In this document: positions 48,911 to 57,692 of the stretch, one piece after another | How the letters are laid out: each line of letters starts with the position of its first letter | Position numbering within the stretch: position 1 is the first letter of the stretch | From: Yarrowia lipolytica | Taxonomy: Eukaryota; Ascomycota; Dipodascomycetes; Dipodascales | Direction of reading: 5' to 3' | Assembly: GCF_001761485.1 (NCBI RefSeq) | Contig: NC_090774.1 | Location: 2,976,001-3,040,000, forward strand | DNA: 64,000 nt | The notes under the pieces: model-generated | Told to the model about the DNA's origin: nothing | Database searches by the model: none | Seen by the model: the letters and a program-made list of their open reading frames with translations, nothing else | Program-made: the position numbers and the translations under genes

Positions 48911-50206
48911 CGTGCAAAAGTTTGACCCTGTCGGACACTATTTATTCAATATCATGTGATTATAGATGAGTAATAAGAGGGTAGCTAATAAGAGTACCTT
49001 GATAAGGAAAAGGATAAGAAGTTCACGGAGATGGTTGTCGTACTGTAATACATAGGTACATACTACCCGTACAAGAGAGGACTATATTTCTGTGTAGAGA
49101 AGCGAGTGTGCTGCATACGCGATGGTCTACTCCATGATGAGCAGCACCTAGCGTACAATGTTTGTCAGTATTTGTCAACTGATAATGGCATAACGTATAC
49201 ATCTGGTAGACTCCGTACTGCAGTATAGCTACGGGTATTTATGTAATACGGGTACATAGGGTTGTGGTCACTATTTCAATACGTACAATATAGAACCAGT
49301 CACCTCGATCTCACCCGTCGGGTAAGAGAAGATTACATGGCCCATTGAGTGCTACATACTGTAGATTTAGTTCAACATTCATCTTGGAACTTGGTAATAG
49401 ATAGGCTAGGCCAGAGGGTATGGTATCCAACTACAATAACAACTGGGCTCTCTGGTGCTTGACTATTGCTGGTCGGATAGGAAGCTGTACCACTCCAGGA
49501 TATGGCTGCGATTGGTGTGTGAGGCATGGGGGAGTGGTAGAGAGAGGAGTTCTAAGCCATGTCCATGACCGTCTTTAGAACAAAAAACCAATTACTTCGA
49601 AGTTTGAAGCGTACCCTCGACTCTCGGGTCTCATTTTGACATGGCCAGGTCCAGGGACAAGAGAGATGCAGACACTTGTATGGATCGAGGTACTATACAT
49701 AATAAGGGGAACTTCATATTTGACTTATATTTACGAGGAGGAACGATGGAATAGATGTGAGACAAATGACAGTTACAAGTCGCTACTGTACATATAAACT
49801 TGCACCCAAATACTGTATATACGGTATTTTCTGCTGTCATTTACGACTCTTAATGAGCAGTATGAGCTCTGTGTCTCGAATGAGAAGACGCGTAGACTGG
49901 ATCAATAGGAGATATAGAGTCAATACAAGTATGAGGTAGAGGTAGAGAGCCATGTATAAATATAATGTGAACACCCATTGTGATACGCAAGCCTCCAACA
50001 ATCGGAATGGGTCATTCTCCTCAAGCTTAGAAACAACAGCAGAACAGTATCAACATTTCTCTATCTAGTTAACTTGATACTTACCTTTTTTTTATTCTAA
50101 TGATTCATTACAGCTATATACCTACAAGTAGTAAGCCGGGTTATTGGCGTTTTTCTAAGACAAACGTCAATCTCTGTTGCTCTAACAAGATTTTAACTTC
50201 CAGCAT
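48911..50206. other. 1.3 kb gene-free interval
   Basis: Rich in TACTGTA/GTACATA words; no gene. Its right end holds a short LINE 3'-end copy and the 5' flank of tRNA-Ile. Confidence 0.5.
50086..50151 (-). mobile_element. Short LINE 3'-end copy upstream of tRNA-Ile
   Basis: A T8 run, then ATTCTAATGATTCATT and on to GGTTATTGGCG: the reverse complement of the 3' end of the LINE at 53097-54425. About 66 bp, so severely 5'-truncated. The end facing the tRNA lies 55 bp before its start. Relative to the long copy it has a 6-bp insertion that creates CTACAAGTAG. Confidence 0.85.
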
Positions 50207-50299
50207 GGTCCCTTGGCCCAGTTGGTTAAGGCGTCGTGCTAATAAGAAATTAGCCTCTTTGCAACGCGAAGATCAGCAGTTCGATCCTGCTAGGGACCA
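50207..50299 (+). tRNA. tRNA-Ile(AAT) with intron
   Basis: Acceptor GGTCCCT/AGGGACC, D arm like yeast tRNA-Ile (GGCCCAGTTGGTTAAGGC), anticodon AAT, an intron of about 19 nt after position 37, box B GTTCGATCC, discriminator A, then T6. Confidence 0.95.
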
Positions 50300-50678
50300 T
50301 TTTTTGCTTAACATATGGTGTAGGCTTGAGTGTTTTGGCATTTTGCTGTGTACAGGAGCTACTGTACGTACTTCTCTGGAATATCGGCACGGTTAGACTA
50401 TCTACGTACGTTGTGGAGCCGGCGATAGCCTACTGTATTTACTGTTTTGCATTTACAGTAATACATACAACCTTAGTCAGCTAACTATTTAAATTTCTGT
50501 CCTGCACCTACTGTAAGCCTTCCTCTTGTGTGAGCTCATCTAATGCCAGTCGCAGAGGGCAAAACAAAAAGTATCGTTATAAAAACATACACTACTTCTC
50601 GTATAAGTACGAGTACTGTAGTCCGCCGGAAAAAAAGGGCCAACTGGAGTCTGTATTTACAGAACTAGCTAGCTGTGA

Positions 50679-50751
50679 TGATCATGCGGAGGATCGAACT
50701 CCGAGCCTCCCCGGTGTGAGCGGGACGTGATAACCATTACACCACACGACC
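50679..50751 (-). tRNA. tRNA-Val(CAC)
   Basis: 73-nt cloverleaf: acceptor GGTCGTG/CATGATC (two G-U pairs), anticodon loop CTCACAC with CAC, box B GTTCGATCC, discriminator A. No intron. A T7 run lies 44 bases downstream. No LINE copy upstream. Confidence 0.93.
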
Positions 50752-51604
50752 GATCAATTTTGGGCTTCGTTGGAACTACCAGCGGTGAATTCTGGGTTAG
50801 TATTCGCGCCCAATTTGAGAGATAAAGCAGTTTTGAAAATTCCATTGGGTTTTCATGGGTCTTTATAGGTGTTAAGGAAAATTTCCGAGCCTTTTTCTTA
50901 CTGAGAGAGGTGTAAACACTGATATTGAAATGAATGATAAGGATACATAGTTAGAGATTAATTCCACAACTCGTATTGGCCTCTCTCCTGATGGATGTCA
51001 AAATTCTATTTACTTTATCTCATTTTAAGTACTGTAGATTGTACTGTGTTCCTTTTGTCTGTCACAGTTCCCGGAAATACCTCTCTTCTCACTACTAATT
51101 TTGACGCAAATGGATACACCTGTGTTGACATGATATGGCACGAGTGTGCGAAGAAGATCAGCAAGTTTTTTCATGTCAACCTGATTGATCAGTTGAACAG
51201 TATATATACCTATGTGTTCAAATGGTCGCGACACCGCTACTCATATCCATCAGAGCATGCATTAAGAATCGTTGTCCCAGAACTAATAGTGTGTCATTAC
51301 TTGTTCTAAAGAGACGCTATCATACAATGTAACAGATGCAGTTTACACAACTTGTATTAAAAGAATGTAAAAGGGACCCCCTTCACCTATCCTTTGCTAC
51401 TAATTACAATGTCCAGATCTATGTATAGTTTGAGAAACCTGGGACTGTCCAAGAGTGTTCATATTACACAAGAGCTGATCTCCACGGATTCTCGACAACT
51501 CAAATACCCATTGTGCCACATTTTCAGGTAAAGTGATCACCTTTTACCCTCTGAGATACTTTTTTATTTTTTATTTTTTATTCTAGGGAAATACATTTTT
51601 ATTC
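50752..51604. other. Gene-free interval inside the tRNA island
   Basis: No gene. Near 51570-51600 T-rich segments with ATTCTA look like still older fragments of the LINE 3' end. Confidence 0.5.
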
Positions 51605-51629
51605 TTTTTTTTATTCTAATGATTCATTT
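51605..51629 (-). mobile_element. Tiny LINE 3'-end copy upstream of tRNA-Glu
   Basis: T8 then ATTCTAATGATTCATT. Only about 25 bp, ending 61 bp before the tRNA. It is recognised by its exact match to the other copies and its position. Confidence 0.75.
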
Positions 51630-51690
51630 ACACTACAGTTTTATTGCAGTTCGCATATTTCGCCTACTGTAACGCTGTATACACAAGTTT

Positions 51691-51771
51691 TCCGATATAG
51701 TGTAGGGGCTATCACATCACGCTCTCATTTCGAGAACCGTGGAGACCGGGGTTCGATTCCCCGTATCGGAG
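51691..51771 (+). tRNA. tRNA-Glu(CTC) with intron
   Basis: Acceptor TCCGATA/TATCGGA, anticodon CTC in loop CTCTCA, a 9-nt intron (TTTCGAGAA), T arm CGGGGTTCGATTCCCCG, discriminator G. Nearly identical to yeast tRNA-Glu outside the anticodon. Confidence 0.95.
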
Positions 51772-51990
51772 TCGCTGCTGTATGGTAGTTTTTTGCAACC
51801 ACCAGGTGGTGTTACTCTGTATTTTTGTGGTGAGAAACGGGCTCCCATGCTGATAGATTTATTTAAGGTGTCTTTGTCCGATATAAGGTTTCGAGTAGAT
51901 AAACTCAAAAAACTGCATGCAAGGGGTTGCAAACACAAGTTTGGTGTTTCATACAGAAATGTAGCTGTGTCATGTAAATAAAAAAGATGG

Positions 51991-52072
51991 CGACATCCGC
52001 AGGATTCGAACCTACGCGGGGAAACCCCAAGAGATTTCTAATCTCTCGCCTTAACCGCTCGGCCAGGATGCC
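51991..52072 (-). tRNA. tRNA-Ser(AGA), second copy
   Basis: Sequence identical over 82 nt to the copy at 32742-32823. T6 follows on the minus strand. Confidence 0.97.
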
Positions 52073-52131
52073 AACTTTTTTTAGATTGTAATCGTGGTAT
52101 GTACGTGTGCGGGTAATTTTTAACGCGCTAG

Positions 52132-52166
52132 GATAGCTGTAATGAATCATTAGAATAAAAAAAAAA
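52132..52166 (+). mobile_element. Short LINE 3'-end copy upstream of tRNA-Ser
   Basis: ATAGCTGTAATGAATCATTAGAAT-type end with an A10 tail, shown here by its first and last parts. Its truncated 5' edge is 59 bp from the tRNA start. Confidence 0.85.
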
Positions 52167-52953
52167 GTCGAAAATTGGCATAATACGCGTTTTATCATCC
52201 TTTTGGTGTTCCTTGCGATTGATACGACTTCATGTGAAGGTTTGGTAACGTTTGCGTACCATATGAACAGATTAGATACTGATATATTCATATTGGTGCT
52301 ACTCTCATACATGAATTGAAAAGGAGCATGGATTCTGGTTCGATGACATCGAACACAATAGTGACGGTTTGTTCAGATTTTTCGCCACCCTCCCCTTCCG
52401 TTCTTATGGCAGCCTTTAATACTCGACTTGTAACTACTTACAGCACAATCGTCGTATACTTGTATTGTGGCAATCATGCTGCTGTGTGTGAGGATTATTA
52501 AGAGAAGAGGACAGAAAACCATTCTTGGCTTACAAGTCATTTGTTGATGTATTAAGAGGCATTTCAATCACTATCTATACGGTCTAGAGAATTCTATGAG
52601 TGCAACTTTTCAGCAGATTTTGGCCTTAGGTATGTTCGGGTACATACTCTTTGAGCAAGGTCGTTTCATCAAAAATGGAGCAGTAAGAAACCATTGCTGT
52701 ATACATGTACGATACTATGTACTTGTCTCGTTGCGTTCCCACCAACTCCGTCTCTTTTATAGAGAACCTCTACAAGTATTACAAGTACAATACGTACATA
52801 CAGTAGTTTCGTCCTCCCAACAACACGCTAATTAACGCGACCGGGGTCTCAACTTAAGTATCGTATGCCGATCCCTGACTAAAACACAGACGCAGTTTGC
52901 GGATTGACGTCACAAAAAGAAAACCATATGGATCGACGTAGAGCAAAAAGACA
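52167..52953. other. Gene-free interval, 0.8 kb
   Basis: No gene. TACAAGTATTACAAGTACAATACG-type words occur near 52770-52795. Confidence 0.5.
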
Positions 52954-53039
52954 GGGCCCAACCGGGAATTGAACCCGGGACCTCTCGCAAATTGCTCAGG
53001 ACACCCTAAGCGAGAATTATACCACTAAACCATCGGGCC
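52954..53039 (-). tRNA. tRNA-Pro(AGG) with intron
   Basis: Acceptor GGCCCGA/TTGGGCC, box A TGGTTTAGTGG, anticodon AGG, an intron of about 14-15 nt, box B GGTTCAATTCC, discriminator C, T5 downstream. Identical to the plus-strand copy at 56281. Confidence 0.95.
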
Positions 53040-53096
53040 GCTGATGGTGTGTTTTAGGGAGCGTTCTCCTTAGTAAGGGTCGTCGGATTCCGTCAT

Positions 53097-53972
53097 GTGC
53101 GCCATTTCCTATCTGACTCCATGGACCGATGTCTGCGAGGACTTGCAAAGCTGTCTCCTATAGCTGTACTGGCGGAGCCTCCAGCCGACTTACGCCCCAG
53201 GGCGCAGTGGTCAAGAGAGAGGATGAAAGTTGACCTGTTCGAACGCCAGCGTCGTGAAAACCCGATCGCAACCATGTCTCGGGAGCAAGTTGCATATCTC
53301 GAGTCGCAAATCGATGTCCCTGTCAAGGTGGCAAAGGATAGCTGGCGAGATCGTTTCAAGGTCATGAAGAACAAGCACTGGTTGGAGACACTGCCATCCG
53401 AGCTTGATCCGAACCACCTACACTGGCTTAAGACAAATCAGTTCCTGAGCAAGCACTACCGACGAGATGATAAGAGCGCTGCTACGCTACACATGTTGCG
53501 GCTGAGCCGCCTCCCCTTCACCCGGTGGTACCCTAAATCAAGATCTGTCCAGTACAGAGACATTGGATGTAGTTCTTGTCAACTCTTCAAACAGAAGAAC
53601 TACCTCCACGAGTACCTTTTTGTCAATTGTCCAGCGTCCAAGGCCATCGGCCAGAAGATTGGTGTCCCCCTTCCATCAAAGATGGCGGACTGGATTTTAC
53701 TGGAAGCCAAGGACGGCCCGCTAAACTACATTAGAAAGCTCGCCCATGCTTTGTGGCAGTTCGAGCGAGCTATGCGAAAAACTGGCCTAGTGGGTACTGA
53801 CCCCGTGGTCCAGCGAGACTTCGCTCACTTGTTCACCCGAGCTTCTGCAGCATATCGTCGCGACATGGTGATCGTGGCTACGAGGCGGAAGCGCGGAGAG
53901 GAATGGGCGCCGAAGTTGTTTTCTACTCTAGGAGCATTATTACGATGGCTGGTACACATGACGTACTCGTGA
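53097..53972 (+). pseudogene. LINE ORF2 C-terminal fragment
   Basis: 291 codons open from the truncation point to TGA, with no ATG at the start. It contains W/R-rich helices (PFTRWYPKS) and a zinc-knuckle-like CSSCQLFKQKNYLHEYLFVN followed by Cys. The intact frame suggests a fairly recent insertion. It is not expected to make a functional protein alone. Confidence 0.75.
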
Positions 53973-54425
53973 GGTCTGCTCACGCTAAATATACACGCTG
54001 ACGTCTCAGATTAATGGAATTATGGAAAAAAAATTGAAAAAAAAAAAAACAACCAAACACCGTGCTACCCCAACTTCAACTCCCCGATGGCGCAAAGACT
54101 CAAACACGACACACACGAATCATATTCATGATCCCTATCCGAATTACACCGTCTACGATCTATTATGAGAACAAACTAAACCAACCTCGAGTCTGGATAA
54201 GACATGAAACGATTGATATGATTTCTTGATCTGTTAGCCATGATTCACTACCACGAGACCACGACAATTACATGAACTAGACGAAACGTCGACATTTTAA
54301 CCGACAGCGCCTCGCAGCGCACATCGCAAAGATTCAGAAGTGTATGATTTATTGAACGCCAATAACCCGGCTTACTAGGTATATAGCTGTAATGAATCAT
54401 TAGAATAAAAAAAAAAAAAAAAAAA
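53097..54425 (+). mobile_element. 5'-truncated LINE, 1.3 kb, upstream of tRNA-Pro
   Basis: Holds the C-terminal part of a reverse-transcriptase ORF2 (53097-53972, open, no internal stop), about 430 bp of 3' UTR with an internal A-rich patch near 54024-54050, and an A19 tail at 54407-54425 after GAATCATTAGAAT. The 291-residue frame has the Cys/His knuckle C-x2-C-x9-H-x6-C (CSSC...H......C) seen near the end of L1-type ORF2. Endonuclease and RT domains are gone. The 5' edge is not visible; 53097 is where the open frame begins and where the spacing seen at other tRNAs would place it. Probably Yarrowia's Ylli family, which I could not verify. Confidence 0.8.
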
Positions 54426-54670
54426 GAGAATGCAGGCATCACTGTATCTAACTTCTACTCTACAACACGCTTTCTATCTGTGCTACATGGTTAAGGCGTA
54501 CCATCTACTGGCCTGTGTTTGCCTCGGGGTTCAGTGATAGCAGTAATTGTATCGGTTCTGAAACATATCACCTGAGTCTGTTCTCCGCAGTATAGTCCTC
54601 ATATCTAATATGTACTTACAGTCTACATTGTACTTTGCGTCAACTTATTGTTCAGATACACTATAAATAA

Positions 54671-55135
54671 CTACTCCTTGGTTGCAGCAATGGTGAACTT
54701 GACGGGATTCTTGCAACCGTACTTGTCGCCGGTCTTGACGTAGACAATCGGGGGATGAAGAGGTCCCACGGTCTCGTCGATACAGGAGTAGAATTCCTGG
54801 GAGTCGTTGAACTCGAAGTCCTTGACGAGGCCATCACCCTTGAAGGAGAAGCCCTCCTTGGGCTCCGGAGGAGACTTGAAAATGAGCTCACCGTCCTGGG
54901 CAACATCTAGAGACAGACCAGGGAAGCCCTGGGCGATCAACTTGATGGTGTTTCCGTCGTCCTCGGCTCGGAAGTCCGAGTAGCCCGTGGTCAGGCCGTA
55001 GACAATGTTGTTTCCGTGGAGCTGCAGCGGCTTGAGACCTGTTGCACCGGGGCCAATGGCGGCCTTGAGTGTGTACTGGTCGGCTGCAAGAGCAGCAGTG
55101 GCAGCGGTGAGGATGGAGAGGGACTTGAAAAGCAT
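54671..55135 (-). CDS. Small secreted protein, 154 aa
   Basis: A secreted or wall protein with a clear signal peptide (MLFKSLSILTAATAALAA). The mature part is beta-rich looking (YTLKAAIGPGATGLKPLQLHG, then GYSDFRAEDDGNTIKLIAQG) with two cysteines near 120 and 142 that could form a disulfide (YSC.....KYGC). No GPI tail. A TATAAAG motif (55208-55215) lies about 75 bases before the ATG. Codon use is strongly biased, which suggests strong expression. Family not recognised; a fungal cell-wall or surface protein is the best guess. It is the only protein gene inside the tRNA island. Confidence 0.8.
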   Translation of the reverse strand: MLFKSLSILTAATAALAADQYTLKAAIGPGATGLKPLQLHGNNIVYGLTTGYSDFRAEDDGNTIKLIAQGFPGLSLDVAQDGELIFKSPPEPKEGFSFKGDGLVKDFEFNDSQEFYSCIDETVGPLHPPIVYVKTGDKYGCKNPVKFTIAATKE

Positions 55136-56155
55136 TTTGGGTTGTGGGCGGTTGCGTGTTTGTCAGTGTGTAGTAGTGAGGGACGATATATTGTCGGGGT
55201 CGAACCCCTTTATATGCTGTGACTCAATATACTGACGTCGTACGTGCGGGATTTCTTCGTTCTCAATCAATGTCATCCCTACGCTCAAAATAGAATATCC
55301 CGAATTTTGACATTCTGAACTCTGAGGGTAGCATTAGGCTTGCATGTGCCATGTATTGAGGGATGGTTTCAGGCACGCCTTGGAAGCATGGCGGAGGAGG
55401 GGTACAGACGAGCTATTGCTTGGAGAGGTGGGGATGACAGCGTGTGACTTCTATTACCGTGTAGTGATGCATGTAGTGATGCGATATTGTTGGTGTTGGC
55501 ACTGTCCTCCGTCACTTCGGGTCTCGAGCTGTGTAGAGTTAAGCGAAGACCCTGTCTTAAAGATGGAAGTGATGTCATCCTTATTTTTAGCAAAGGCGTT
55601 GACGTCACATTAAAAGTGGAGAAAGTGCGGGCGTTCAGGGGTAGCAAACATTGCTATCGATACGGGGTCCACTCAATTCAAGGAAGTAATTTGGTCTATC
55701 TTACATACACGGAGCTTCAGATAAACACAGTATCGTGTAAAATGCCGCTGGTTCTTTCTACCGGTTCTTACTTGTAATGATCACAGTCCTTGAAACGATG
55801 ATCTTTCAAGAACATGTGATGCGGTATGTACATGTGCTGTATTGGGTTTACTGATATTCCTCGTAGAAATCAGATGTAAGTCATAGAGAGGCAGTTATAT
55901 ATAGATATTCAACCCTAGGCACGAGGGGCTTCCTCGTTGTTTGCGGTACGTGTCTCTCTTTAGTTTCACAGGAGTCTTATCCAAGGTAGCCAACCGCAAC
56001 TCAGAGTGGAAGTTGACGGGCTCTAAAATGGTCATATCAGATCCAAATCACCAATTTTACTCTCCGGACAGCAGCAAGATGACAGTTACAGTAGAAGTAC
56101 CGGTACTTTACAAGGTTCTATTTACACAAGGGCAATCTCATTCGAGAACGAAGTG
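55136..56155. other. Gene-free interval, about 1 kb
   Basis: Promoter of the secreted-protein gene, then AT-rich sequence without a gene. Confidence 0.5.
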
Positions 56156-56221
56156 TTTTTTTGTTTTTATTCTAATGATTCATTGCAGAGTGGTTTTTTT
56201 TTTTTTATTCTAATGATTCAG
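56156..56221 (-). mobile_element. Two stacked LINE 3'-end copies upstream of tRNA-Pro
   Basis: An outer copy (56156-56189; T-run broken by one G, then ATTCTAATGATTCATTGCAG) and an inner copy (56194-56221; T12, ATTCTAATGATTCA). The inner one ends 59 bp before the tRNA. Confidence 0.85.
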
Positions 56222-56280
56222 TGTTTTTTTATTTCCTCACTTTCCACAGTCTCTTCTCCAGGCCCCACGACCCCAACTAC

Positions 56281-56366
56281 GGCCCGATGGTTTAGTGGTA
56301 TAATTCTCGCTTAGGGTGTCCTGAGCAATTTGCGAGAGGTCCCGGGTTCAATTCCCGGTTGGGCCC
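56281..56366 (+). tRNA. tRNA-Pro(AGG) with intron, second copy
   Basis: Identical to the minus-strand gene at 52954-53039, intron included. Followed by a T5 run. Confidence 0.95.
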
Positions 56367-57144
56367 GTTCTTTTTATACCCCCAGAGTTCCTAGGGTTAT
56401 TTTTTAGTCTCCAGTTACAAGTATTACCTGTACGCACATCTGCGTCCATGCTGATGCATCGTGCATGGCACAGAACCTCAGGCTGGATTAGTAACAGAGA
56501 GTGCTGTAGCAGCTTCTGAAACAAGTGCGATTTTTATATCGTTATGATGATAGAATCATCAAGTTACCTCCGGGAATGTGTTTTGTTATATCCCCGTGTG
56601 CTACATGGCGTGTCATATTTGTAGCCTCTGTTTACGTCCTTGATTACGACGAGTGCAGTCTCAACTGTGTTGTAGGAATTACATCACACAAACAACCAGA
56701 GCATGCTCTTCCGGGCTGTTGAGGCGCTGGAATTTTTGCGCGCCTTCATACTGTGTGGCCTGTGATTCTGTAGACACCCTCTTTCTTTACTCGTTGGCTT
56801 CTGCTTGTATTTGTACGAGTAAGACGTTTCTACAAGTAAAGTTGAATGCCTATGCCTCCATATTCTCATAATGACACAAACTTGTACTTGTACAAGTAGA
56901 CAATCACATAATAACGCAAACCCACACATATACACCACCAGGGTACTGTACCCAGCCATTAATAAACCCCGAACACCTCTTTGATAGTCTGATCTTAATG
57001 TCTGATCTTACTTACTGTCTCATCTCATCCTGTATTAGGTTAAGGCTCAACGTCTATGCATACGTCAGAACTCAAAAATGAGAGCATTCCCAAAAGCCTT
57101 CAGAGAGGAGGCTTGTATATTCCTCAACAAAACCCTATTGAACA
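56367..57144. other. Gene-free interval, 0.8 kb
   Basis: No gene. Contains ACTTGTACTTGTACAAGTAGAC near 56880 in part, another instance of the intergenic word family. Confidence 0.5.
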
Positions 57145-57234
57145 TTTTTTTTATTCTAATGATTCATTACAGCTATATACCTACTAGGCCAGGTTATTGG
57201 CGTTCAATAATCGAACATTTTTTTTTATTCTAAT
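57145..57234 (-). mobile_element. Two stacked LINE 3'-end copies upstream of tRNA-Arg
   Basis: An outer copy (57145-57210, reaching GGTTATTGGCGTTCAATAA) and an inner copy (57218-57234, T9 and ATTCTAAT). GAACA occurs before the outer copy, between the two and after the inner one (57140, 57213, 57235), as expected of short target-site duplications. Confidence 0.85.
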
Positions 57235-57296
57235 GAACATGATGACTAATCGAAATACTCATGAAGAAGCCCGACATTTTTTGGGACGAACAACCA

Positions 57297-57386
57297 GAGG
57301 ACGTGGCGTAATGGTAGCGCATTGGATTTCGGTTCTTAATGAACGACGTCCTCCAAAGGCTGCGGGTTCGAGTCCTGTCGTCCTCT
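57297..57386 (+). tRNA. tRNA-Arg(TCG) with intron
   Basis: Acceptor GAGGACG/CGTCCTC, D arm GCGTAATGGTAGCGC, anticodon stem TTGGA/TCCAA, anticodon TCG, an intron of about 18 nt, box B GGTTCGAGTCC, discriminator T. This tRNA reads CGA, the favoured Arg codon in the window's genes. Confidence 0.93.
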
Positions 57387-57527
57387 TAAGCATATATCCC
57401 TGCTGATTTTTTTCTCTTTGCCAGTGTGTGTAAGACGCATTTTTGCCCTCCAGCCTTTTGTCATCATTTTTTTTCAAACAAAGAAAACTCAAAACAAAAC
57501 CTTATTTTTATTAAAGAATTTAATAAA

Positions 57528-57589: not shown

Positions 57590-57692
57590 CCAGGCCATAT
57601 CCTGAAGAAAATACGGCTTCCAGTCCGATCAGCTACAGTCAAACTCAAGAGACCCCAGTACTTCATCTGCGACCGCGTCTCGCAATTACCAG
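57590..57692 (+). pseudogene. Diverged 5S rRNA copy behind the tRNA-Gly relic
   Basis: Shares GGCCATATC, GTCCGATCA, an AGTCAAACT version of the box A-like AGTTAAGCT, and further collinear matches with yeast 5S. Several differences suggest a pseudogene. The gap of about 7 nt to the tRNA relic matches dicistronic tRNA-5S genes. Confidence 0.7.

Follow-up and report, generated by a model that had tools for sequence, protein, structure and literature searches.

What sets pieces of a long interspersed nuclear element (LINE) just ahead of tRNA genes, turned the same way each time, is the question raised by a 64,000-nucleotide stretch of the Yarrowia lipolytica genome (NC_090774.1, positions 2,976,001 to 3,040,000), referred to here in its full length as the window. 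The initial annotation of the window reported six tRNA genes with such a copy upstream, the LINE 5' edge facing the gene, and all six were confirmed. Our analysis of these loci and of a genome-wide sample indicates that a second LINE family, distinct from the Yarrowia LINE Ylli, very probably inserts just upstream of assembled RNA polymerase III (Pol III) genes. In the sample read, the insertions are on one side of the gene, in one orientation and at a near-constant offset, independently of tRNA isotype; 5S rRNA genes are also used, and the same spot is reused.

In the window, tRNA-Ile(AAU) (50207..50299, plus strand; end and intron placed by eye, ARAGORN start 50206) follows a minus-strand copy consisting of eight T and 58 nt of LINE 3' end (50086..50151), with ~55 bp between the LINE 5' edge and the mature tRNA. 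The copy upstream of tRNA-Glu (51691..51773, plus strand; start placed by eye, 51690 by ARAGORN, label Glu or Ser) is on the minus strand (51605..51635), has eight T and ~16-23 nt, and ends 55-62 bp from the gene, the edge of so short a copy being blurred; shorter tail copies sit immediately upstream of it. On the opposite strand, tRNA-Ser(AGA) (51988..52072, minus) is faced at 60 bp by a plus-strand copy of 24 nt and ten A (52133..52166). Two genes carry two nested minus-strand copies apiece. At tRNA-Pro(AGG) (56281..56366, plus) the outer, presumably older copy has five T and 20 nt (56164..56188), and the inner, presumably newer one has thirteen T and 14 nt (56194..56220) and ends 60 bp from the gene. 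At tRNA-Arg(TCG) (57297..57387, plus; start by eye, ARAGORN 57296) the corresponding copies are of eight T and 58 nt (57145..57210) and of nine T and 8-10 nt (57218..57236), each with flanks that share GAACA, the inner one ~60 bp off. Gaps of ~55-62 bp had been given for these five genes, and our measurements, ~55 to 62 bp, reproduce them.

The sixth gene, tRNA-Pro(AGG) on the minus strand (52954..53039), faces a 1.31-kb 5'-truncated plus-strand copy with a tail of 19 A (53099..54425), the edge of which had been left open. Homology with a second copy begins at 53099, and the DNA preceding that position is tRNA-Pro flank, common to two other tRNA-Pro genes; the gap is therefore 59 bp. From 53100 to 53972 (plus strand) this copy contains an open C-terminal part of the second open reading frame (ORF2), with a zinc knuckle of the form C-x2-C-x9-H-x6-C. 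No copy of the LINE end, ATTCTAATGA, was assigned within 600 bp upstream of three other tRNA genes of the window, tRNA-Ser 32742, tRNA-Val 50679 (minus) and tRNA-Ser at ~58347.

The genome searched comprises 20.5 Mb in six contigs (C1 to C6; the window is C5:2976001-3040000). A 16-mer of the LINE tail occurs 98 times and T6ATTCTAATGA, with at most one mismatch, 215 times, the reversed control of each giving none. Three tail searches, pooled, yielded at least 154 distinct sites (100 of the 215 T6ATTCTAATGA places were listed), of which we read 31 of 31 on C1, 15 of 15 on C2, 19 of 21 on C3, 8 of 33 on C5, 0 of 17 on C4 and 0 of 37 on C6. In the resulting 54 blocks of DNA, 299,916 bases in all, ATTCTAATGA occurs 78 times, including five places outside the site lists. 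A 5S gene within 40 bp behind a tRNA gene was not tallied as a Pol III unit of its own, and the tRNA isotype labels were taken from ARAGORN and may in part be wrong.

For 61 of the 78 copies, a same-strand tRNA or 5S gene is present no more than 600 bp away to the 5' side of the LINE, and for none of the 78 is the nearest Pol III gene within this distance located on the tail side or the opposite strand. When any gene is counted, and not just the nearest, an opposite-strand gene is additionally present on the 5' side of seven sites and on the tail side of two. A run of at least five T directly adjoins the 3' end in 59 copies (others have an interrupted run, by eye), and 47 of these 59 have a Pol III gene in the expected place. 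Random positions in the same gene-rich blocks satisfy the Pol III criterion in 6.8% of cases. The initial annotation had named, as evidence that would speak against targeting, copies lying mostly away from Pol III genes or scattered in distance or orientation. This is not what the 73 sites read show, since 59 of them have a Pol III gene no further than 600 bp off, on the side and strand expected.

The same picture was obtained from genes that had not been chosen by their LINE. Among 63 tRNA genes (those scored out of 1095 RF00005 candidates), at least 16 are preceded within 600 bp by a copy in the expected orientation, and none by one in the opposite orientation; for 47 5S genes (those scored out of 917 RF00001 candidates) the corresponding counts are at least 3 and none, one tail lying 396 bp off. 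These counts are lower bounds because the listed sites total 154. At two of the 63, an opposite-strand site lies 432-438 bp away on the other side and belongs in each case to a neighbouring tRNA gene. In the interval from -40 to -250 of 78 Pol III units, T5 followed by ATTCT occurs 57 times in sense and never in antisense, and seven permuted words occur 0-2 times each in sense. Of the 57 matches, 13 agree with the LINE exactly for just 5-9 nt.

It is the 5' edge of the LINE that keeps a constant distance to the gene. For short copies the gap was measured from the exact-match length, since alignments ran too far; exact matching shortens diverged copies and alignment ends early at interruptions. 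In 38 of 51 genes the innermost gap is at most 72 bp, with a median of 59.5, a standard deviation of 4.0 and a range of 51-72 bp; it is 56-62 bp in 25 of the 51 and 53-65 bp in 35. With alignment lengths throughout, the median is 59, the standard deviation 5.2 and the range 40-65 bp (39 of 51 genes, at 70 bp or less). Across copy lengths of 10-199 nt the gap does not correlate with copy length (-0.02), whereas the distance of the motif does (0.99). The 51 target genes span 15 tRNA isotype labels plus two 5S units, which argues against a sequence target. Two long copies follow the distance rule, the 1.31-kb copy of the window and one of ~1.25 kb (locus L073) that ends ~54 bp from a tRNA-Ser gene, an offset taken from alignment ends. 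At a third, C4:2136111-2137751, with 1.64 kb aligned and perhaps 1.8 kb by eye, a shorter copy intervenes before the tRNA gene at 2138008.

The copies vary in length between 5 nt and at least 1.31 kb, the latter with ORF2 sequence, and 54 of the 78 keep 30 nt of the LINE or less, by alignment. Where nested pairs were found within 110 nt, the outer 5' edge lies within 22 bp of the next inner T-run in 16 of 17, so that one spot is reused by later insertions; the innermost copy would then be the newest. A variant tail (ATTCTAGGGA; TTTTTATTCTAGGGA, at window ~51575-51600) has 11 genome matches, shares the terminal ATTCTA with the LINE and may represent a further subfamily. One match, at C5:2967764 (plus) lies ~70 bp upstream of a same-strand tRNA gene at C5:2967839.

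We assign the tRNA-side copies to a second, L1-like family of Yarrowia LINEs. L1-clade traits are present, namely a zinc knuckle at the C-terminus of ORF2, a poly(A) tail and frequent 5' truncation, and Ylli in the same genome has a homologous ORF2 C-terminus, a similar zinc knuckle and a poly(A) tail. Ylli was nonetheless rejected as the source because its 3' end is different, its C-terminus is only 27% identical to that of the window copy (152 aligned positions, Ylli copy of locus L071) and its locations are far apart from those of the copies. The L071 Ylli copy, the one Ylli 3' end read as sequence, has a different sequence ahead of its A-tail. Matches to the reverse transcriptase (RT) domain RVT_1 in the genome include 21 RT-bearing Ylli elements, all with an identical score; the nearest listed LINE site is 9.4 kb from a Ylli RT hit, and the 1.3-kb copy has 52 DNA matches (40 of 114 candidates scored), none of them closer than 31.7 kb to such a hit. 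Pfam gave no domain above cut-off in the ORF2 end of either LINE. A protein of Yarrowia sp. C11 (P0002) is 64% identical over 86% of the query, so the second family either predates the species split or moved between species.

Ylli thus provides a built-in control for the second family. We used 78 exact Ylli 3' ends of the 103 obtained with up to one mismatch, setting aside the 25 one-mismatch ends; 21 of the 78 lie within 4 kb of RT hits, which equals the number of RT elements, and each of the 21 RT hits has a Ylli end within that distance. None of the 78 was found within 600 bp upstream of the 63 tRNA or the 47 5S genes, and at one of these tRNA genes a Ylli 3' end lies downstream, within 700 bp. 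Of the Ylli ends, three fall inside the sampled blocks, at distances of 200, 1862 and 3748 bp to a Pol III gene, and 2 of the 21 Ylli RT hits have sampled Pol III genes within 8 kb. The first Ylli paper, by Casaregola in 2002, reportedly described no insertion specificity. As for the arrangement of Ylli itself, three RT elements on C3 (2665740, 2726198 and 2786656) are spaced by 60,458 bp, which fits the 54-kb repeat with three Ylli copies described for W29/CLIB89 (PMC5014426).

The geometry fits the published behaviour of TRE5-A (PMC5391098, PMC5911963), in line with the comparison to Dictyostelium TRE5 elements made in the initial annotation. TRE5-A, too, keeps a near-fixed distance when it inserts upstream of tRNA genes, its 5' end always facing the gene; it also uses 5S genes, and it occupies ~24% of tRNA genes (PMC5391098), compared with at least 16 of 63 here. 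Most TRE5-A insertions are 47 ± 3 bp from the gene, just upstream of the DNA covered by TFIIIB (PMC5391098), whereas the Yarrowia LINE, in an ascomycete yeast host, inserts at ~59 bp and thus slightly further out. A box B requirement and contact with TFIIIB are reported for TRE5-A. The Yarrowia LINE was read as 5'-truncated copies, mostly of 30 nt or less, from which neither ORF1 nor RT was recovered. The Zorro elements of Candida albicans are likewise non-LTR (long terminal repeat) elements in a yeast, Zorro3 being of the L1 superfamily; however, Zorro3 inserts at poly(A) and Zorro1 and Zorro2 are subtelomeric, and the accessible text of the source mentions no tRNA linkage (PMC7175516). In Yarrowia, Tyl3, Ylt1 and Tyl6 also insert upstream of Pol III genes, as does yeast Ty3, but these are LTR elements and insert at or a few bp from the transcription start, not at -59 (PMC5911963, PMC5014426). 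The accessible part of a 2018 review of Pol III targeting includes these three Yarrowia elements and no Yarrowia LINE (PMC5911963). In the literature covered in part, tRNA-targeted non-LTR elements are described from social amoebae alone, and among titles and abstracts, with subscription papers mostly outside the coverage, no report of LINE targeting of Pol III genes in Yarrowia was found.

Could the repeated upstream sequence reflect something other than targeted insertion? The T-run with ATTCTAATGATTC might be a Pol III promoter element of the host that the LINE resembles or has captured, without any insertions. The many copies of 30 nt or less (54 of 78), mostly at similar offsets upstream, are what such an element would look like. 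Yet it is present within 600 bp of just 16 of the 63 tRNA genes not chosen by LINE, its length varies between 5 nt and at least 1.31 kb, ORF2 sequence included, nested tandem copies at a single gene look like insertions, and the constant is the distance of the 5' edge and not that of the motif, so that hardly any weight can be given to this explanation. That the LINE instead targets T-runs, which happen to abound upstream of tRNA genes, is very unlikely. Insertion into poly(A) is reported for Zorro3 (PMC7175516), 59 of the 78 copies have a run of at least five T at the 3' end and some flanks are T-rich, but many flanks ahead of the T-run are not (GGGG, GAACA, CACCGC), T5+ATTCT is found upstream of Pol III units in one sense only (57 against 0), and a T-run preference leaves unexplained why the opposite end of the insert is at a fixed distance from the gene. 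The strong regional preference of the Yarrowia LINE also differs from Zorro3-type insertion into poly(A), which shows none.

In a compact genome where Pol III flanks tolerate insertions, broad insertion followed by selection that spares only the copies upstream of Pol III genes might be considered. This is very improbable, as Ylli 3' ends in the same genome are not enriched there (0/63 and 0/47) and neither a single strand nor a standard deviation of 4 bp is expected from selection. A different guide, rather than a different process, is proposed if a sequence-specific host protein other than TFIIIB binds a motif of the TGACTAA/TTAGTCA type near -55 and directs the LINE. Copies do end beside this motif. 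Between -64 and -44 it occurs in 18 of 51 units with a LINE and in 6 of 27 without one. However, these proportions do not clearly differ, 33 of the 51 targeted genes have no motif in this interval, and in LINE-bearing genes the motif is tallied next to inserted sequence; we consider this guide unlikely. Motifs of the TGACTAA/TTAGTCA/TTACTAA type cluster near -55 with few matches elsewhere upstream, e.g., at C1 1776558 (minus) and C1 1399559 (minus). They resemble a basic leucine zipper (bZIP, Yap-type) site and may be an element that the host's own tRNA genes carry.

Several observations weigh against insertion by a second, Pol III-targeted family. The sample covers 73 of the 154 listed sites, and 17 of the 78 copies have no assigned gene. 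One of the 17 is the 1.3-kb copy of the window, seven face a tRNA-like relic, and at nine neither a Pol III gene nor a tRNA relic was found nearby; at five of these nine the DNA was read for ~454-470 bp past the copy, and one, C1 22891 with a T-run of 2, is probably a chance match. The nine include one long copy, C1 358246-359319. In 13 of the 51 genes the innermost gap exceeds 72 bp and these were excluded from the median and standard deviation; within several of the 13 gaps another, degenerate tail is visible by eye, but not all are explained. In 214,865 bp away from annotated genes there are 15 occurrences of T5+ATTCT, against 0-5 for permuted words. The case for short target-site duplications is weak: flanks share at least 3 nt in 19 of 50 copies, versus 9.8 ± 2.6 after permutation (1 of 2000 permutations reached 19), and at least 5 nt in 6, versus 2.0 ± 1.3 (22 of 2000), some of the matches being of low complexity. 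No RT-bearing member of the second family was found, the copies read stopping within ORF2 and containing neither an APE endonuclease nor an L1-clade RT. The genome has 8 further RVT_1 matches, of which none is closer than 16.9 kb to a listed site. Finally, the Ylli control is based on 3' ends at 110 sampled Pol III genes and says little about the 5' edges of the 21 long copies, which are kilobases from the 3' end.

The seven relics were detected at the 17 unassigned sites by BLAST with tRNA genes. Each faces its LINE copy on the expected strand, one of them 253 bp away. Four relics, at C1 324283, C1 1529428, C3 1860870 and C3 2499871 (Ile, Ser, Ala and Leu), had been missed by ARAGORN and lie downstream of the LINE copies as if the target gene had decayed after insertion. 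An Rfam scan of 12 loci with 14 of the 17 sites gave a single match, to the already-known tRNA in locus L031. Downstream of C1 1283294, by eye, the start of a tRNA-Arg gene lies ~64 bp from the LINE edge and then gives way to other sequence, as in a truncated gene. Relics resembling 5S genes were also seen in the window, at 57593-57659 and 49418-49509; the former follows a tRNA-Gly-like stretch and resembles a broken tRNA-5S pair. The genome also has dispersed 5S genes and tRNA-5S pairs.

If a second LINE family does insert in this way, we infer target-primed reverse transcription guided by TFIIIB. The LINE particle would recognise the Pol III initiation complex, most likely through TFIIIB, and nick the tRNA-sense strand near -55 to -60. 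The nicked 3' end would then prime cDNA synthesis on the poly(A) tail, with copying directed towards the gene; this strand and direction follow from the position of the tail, which under target-primed reverse transcription lies where the first nick was made. Reverse transcription would usually end after 5-30 nt, leaving a T-run and a scrap of LINE 3' end, and one possibility is that the Pol III complex in its path halts copying early. Whether this amounts to a fungal LINE having separately reached the TRE5 solution, docking on the Pol III complex, priming near -55 to -60 and stopping at 5-30 nt, so that stacks of micro-insertions with the newest innermost record its attempts, is in our judgement evenly poised.

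What is new beyond the initial annotation is that the LINE is not Ylli and that most copies keep just ~5-30 nt. Ylli is the LINE named for Yarrowia (PMC9865632, PMC12888388, PMC6346196), with 9 undetermined elements tallied besides (PMC12888388). The second family may be largely uncounted, since the Ylli count of 97 in strain H222 (PMC6346196) resembles our 103 Ylli 3' ends. The DNA upstream of Pol III genes is apparently a safe place to insert. Because Yarrowia is a yeast with good genetics and a conserved Pol III machinery, guidance by TFIIIB or TFIIIC is directly testable. The very short copies would let insertion points be read nearly to the base and would show how far reverse transcription proceeded before it stopped. 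If true, the fungal case would show LINEs arriving at much the same geometry of targeting beyond the amoebae.

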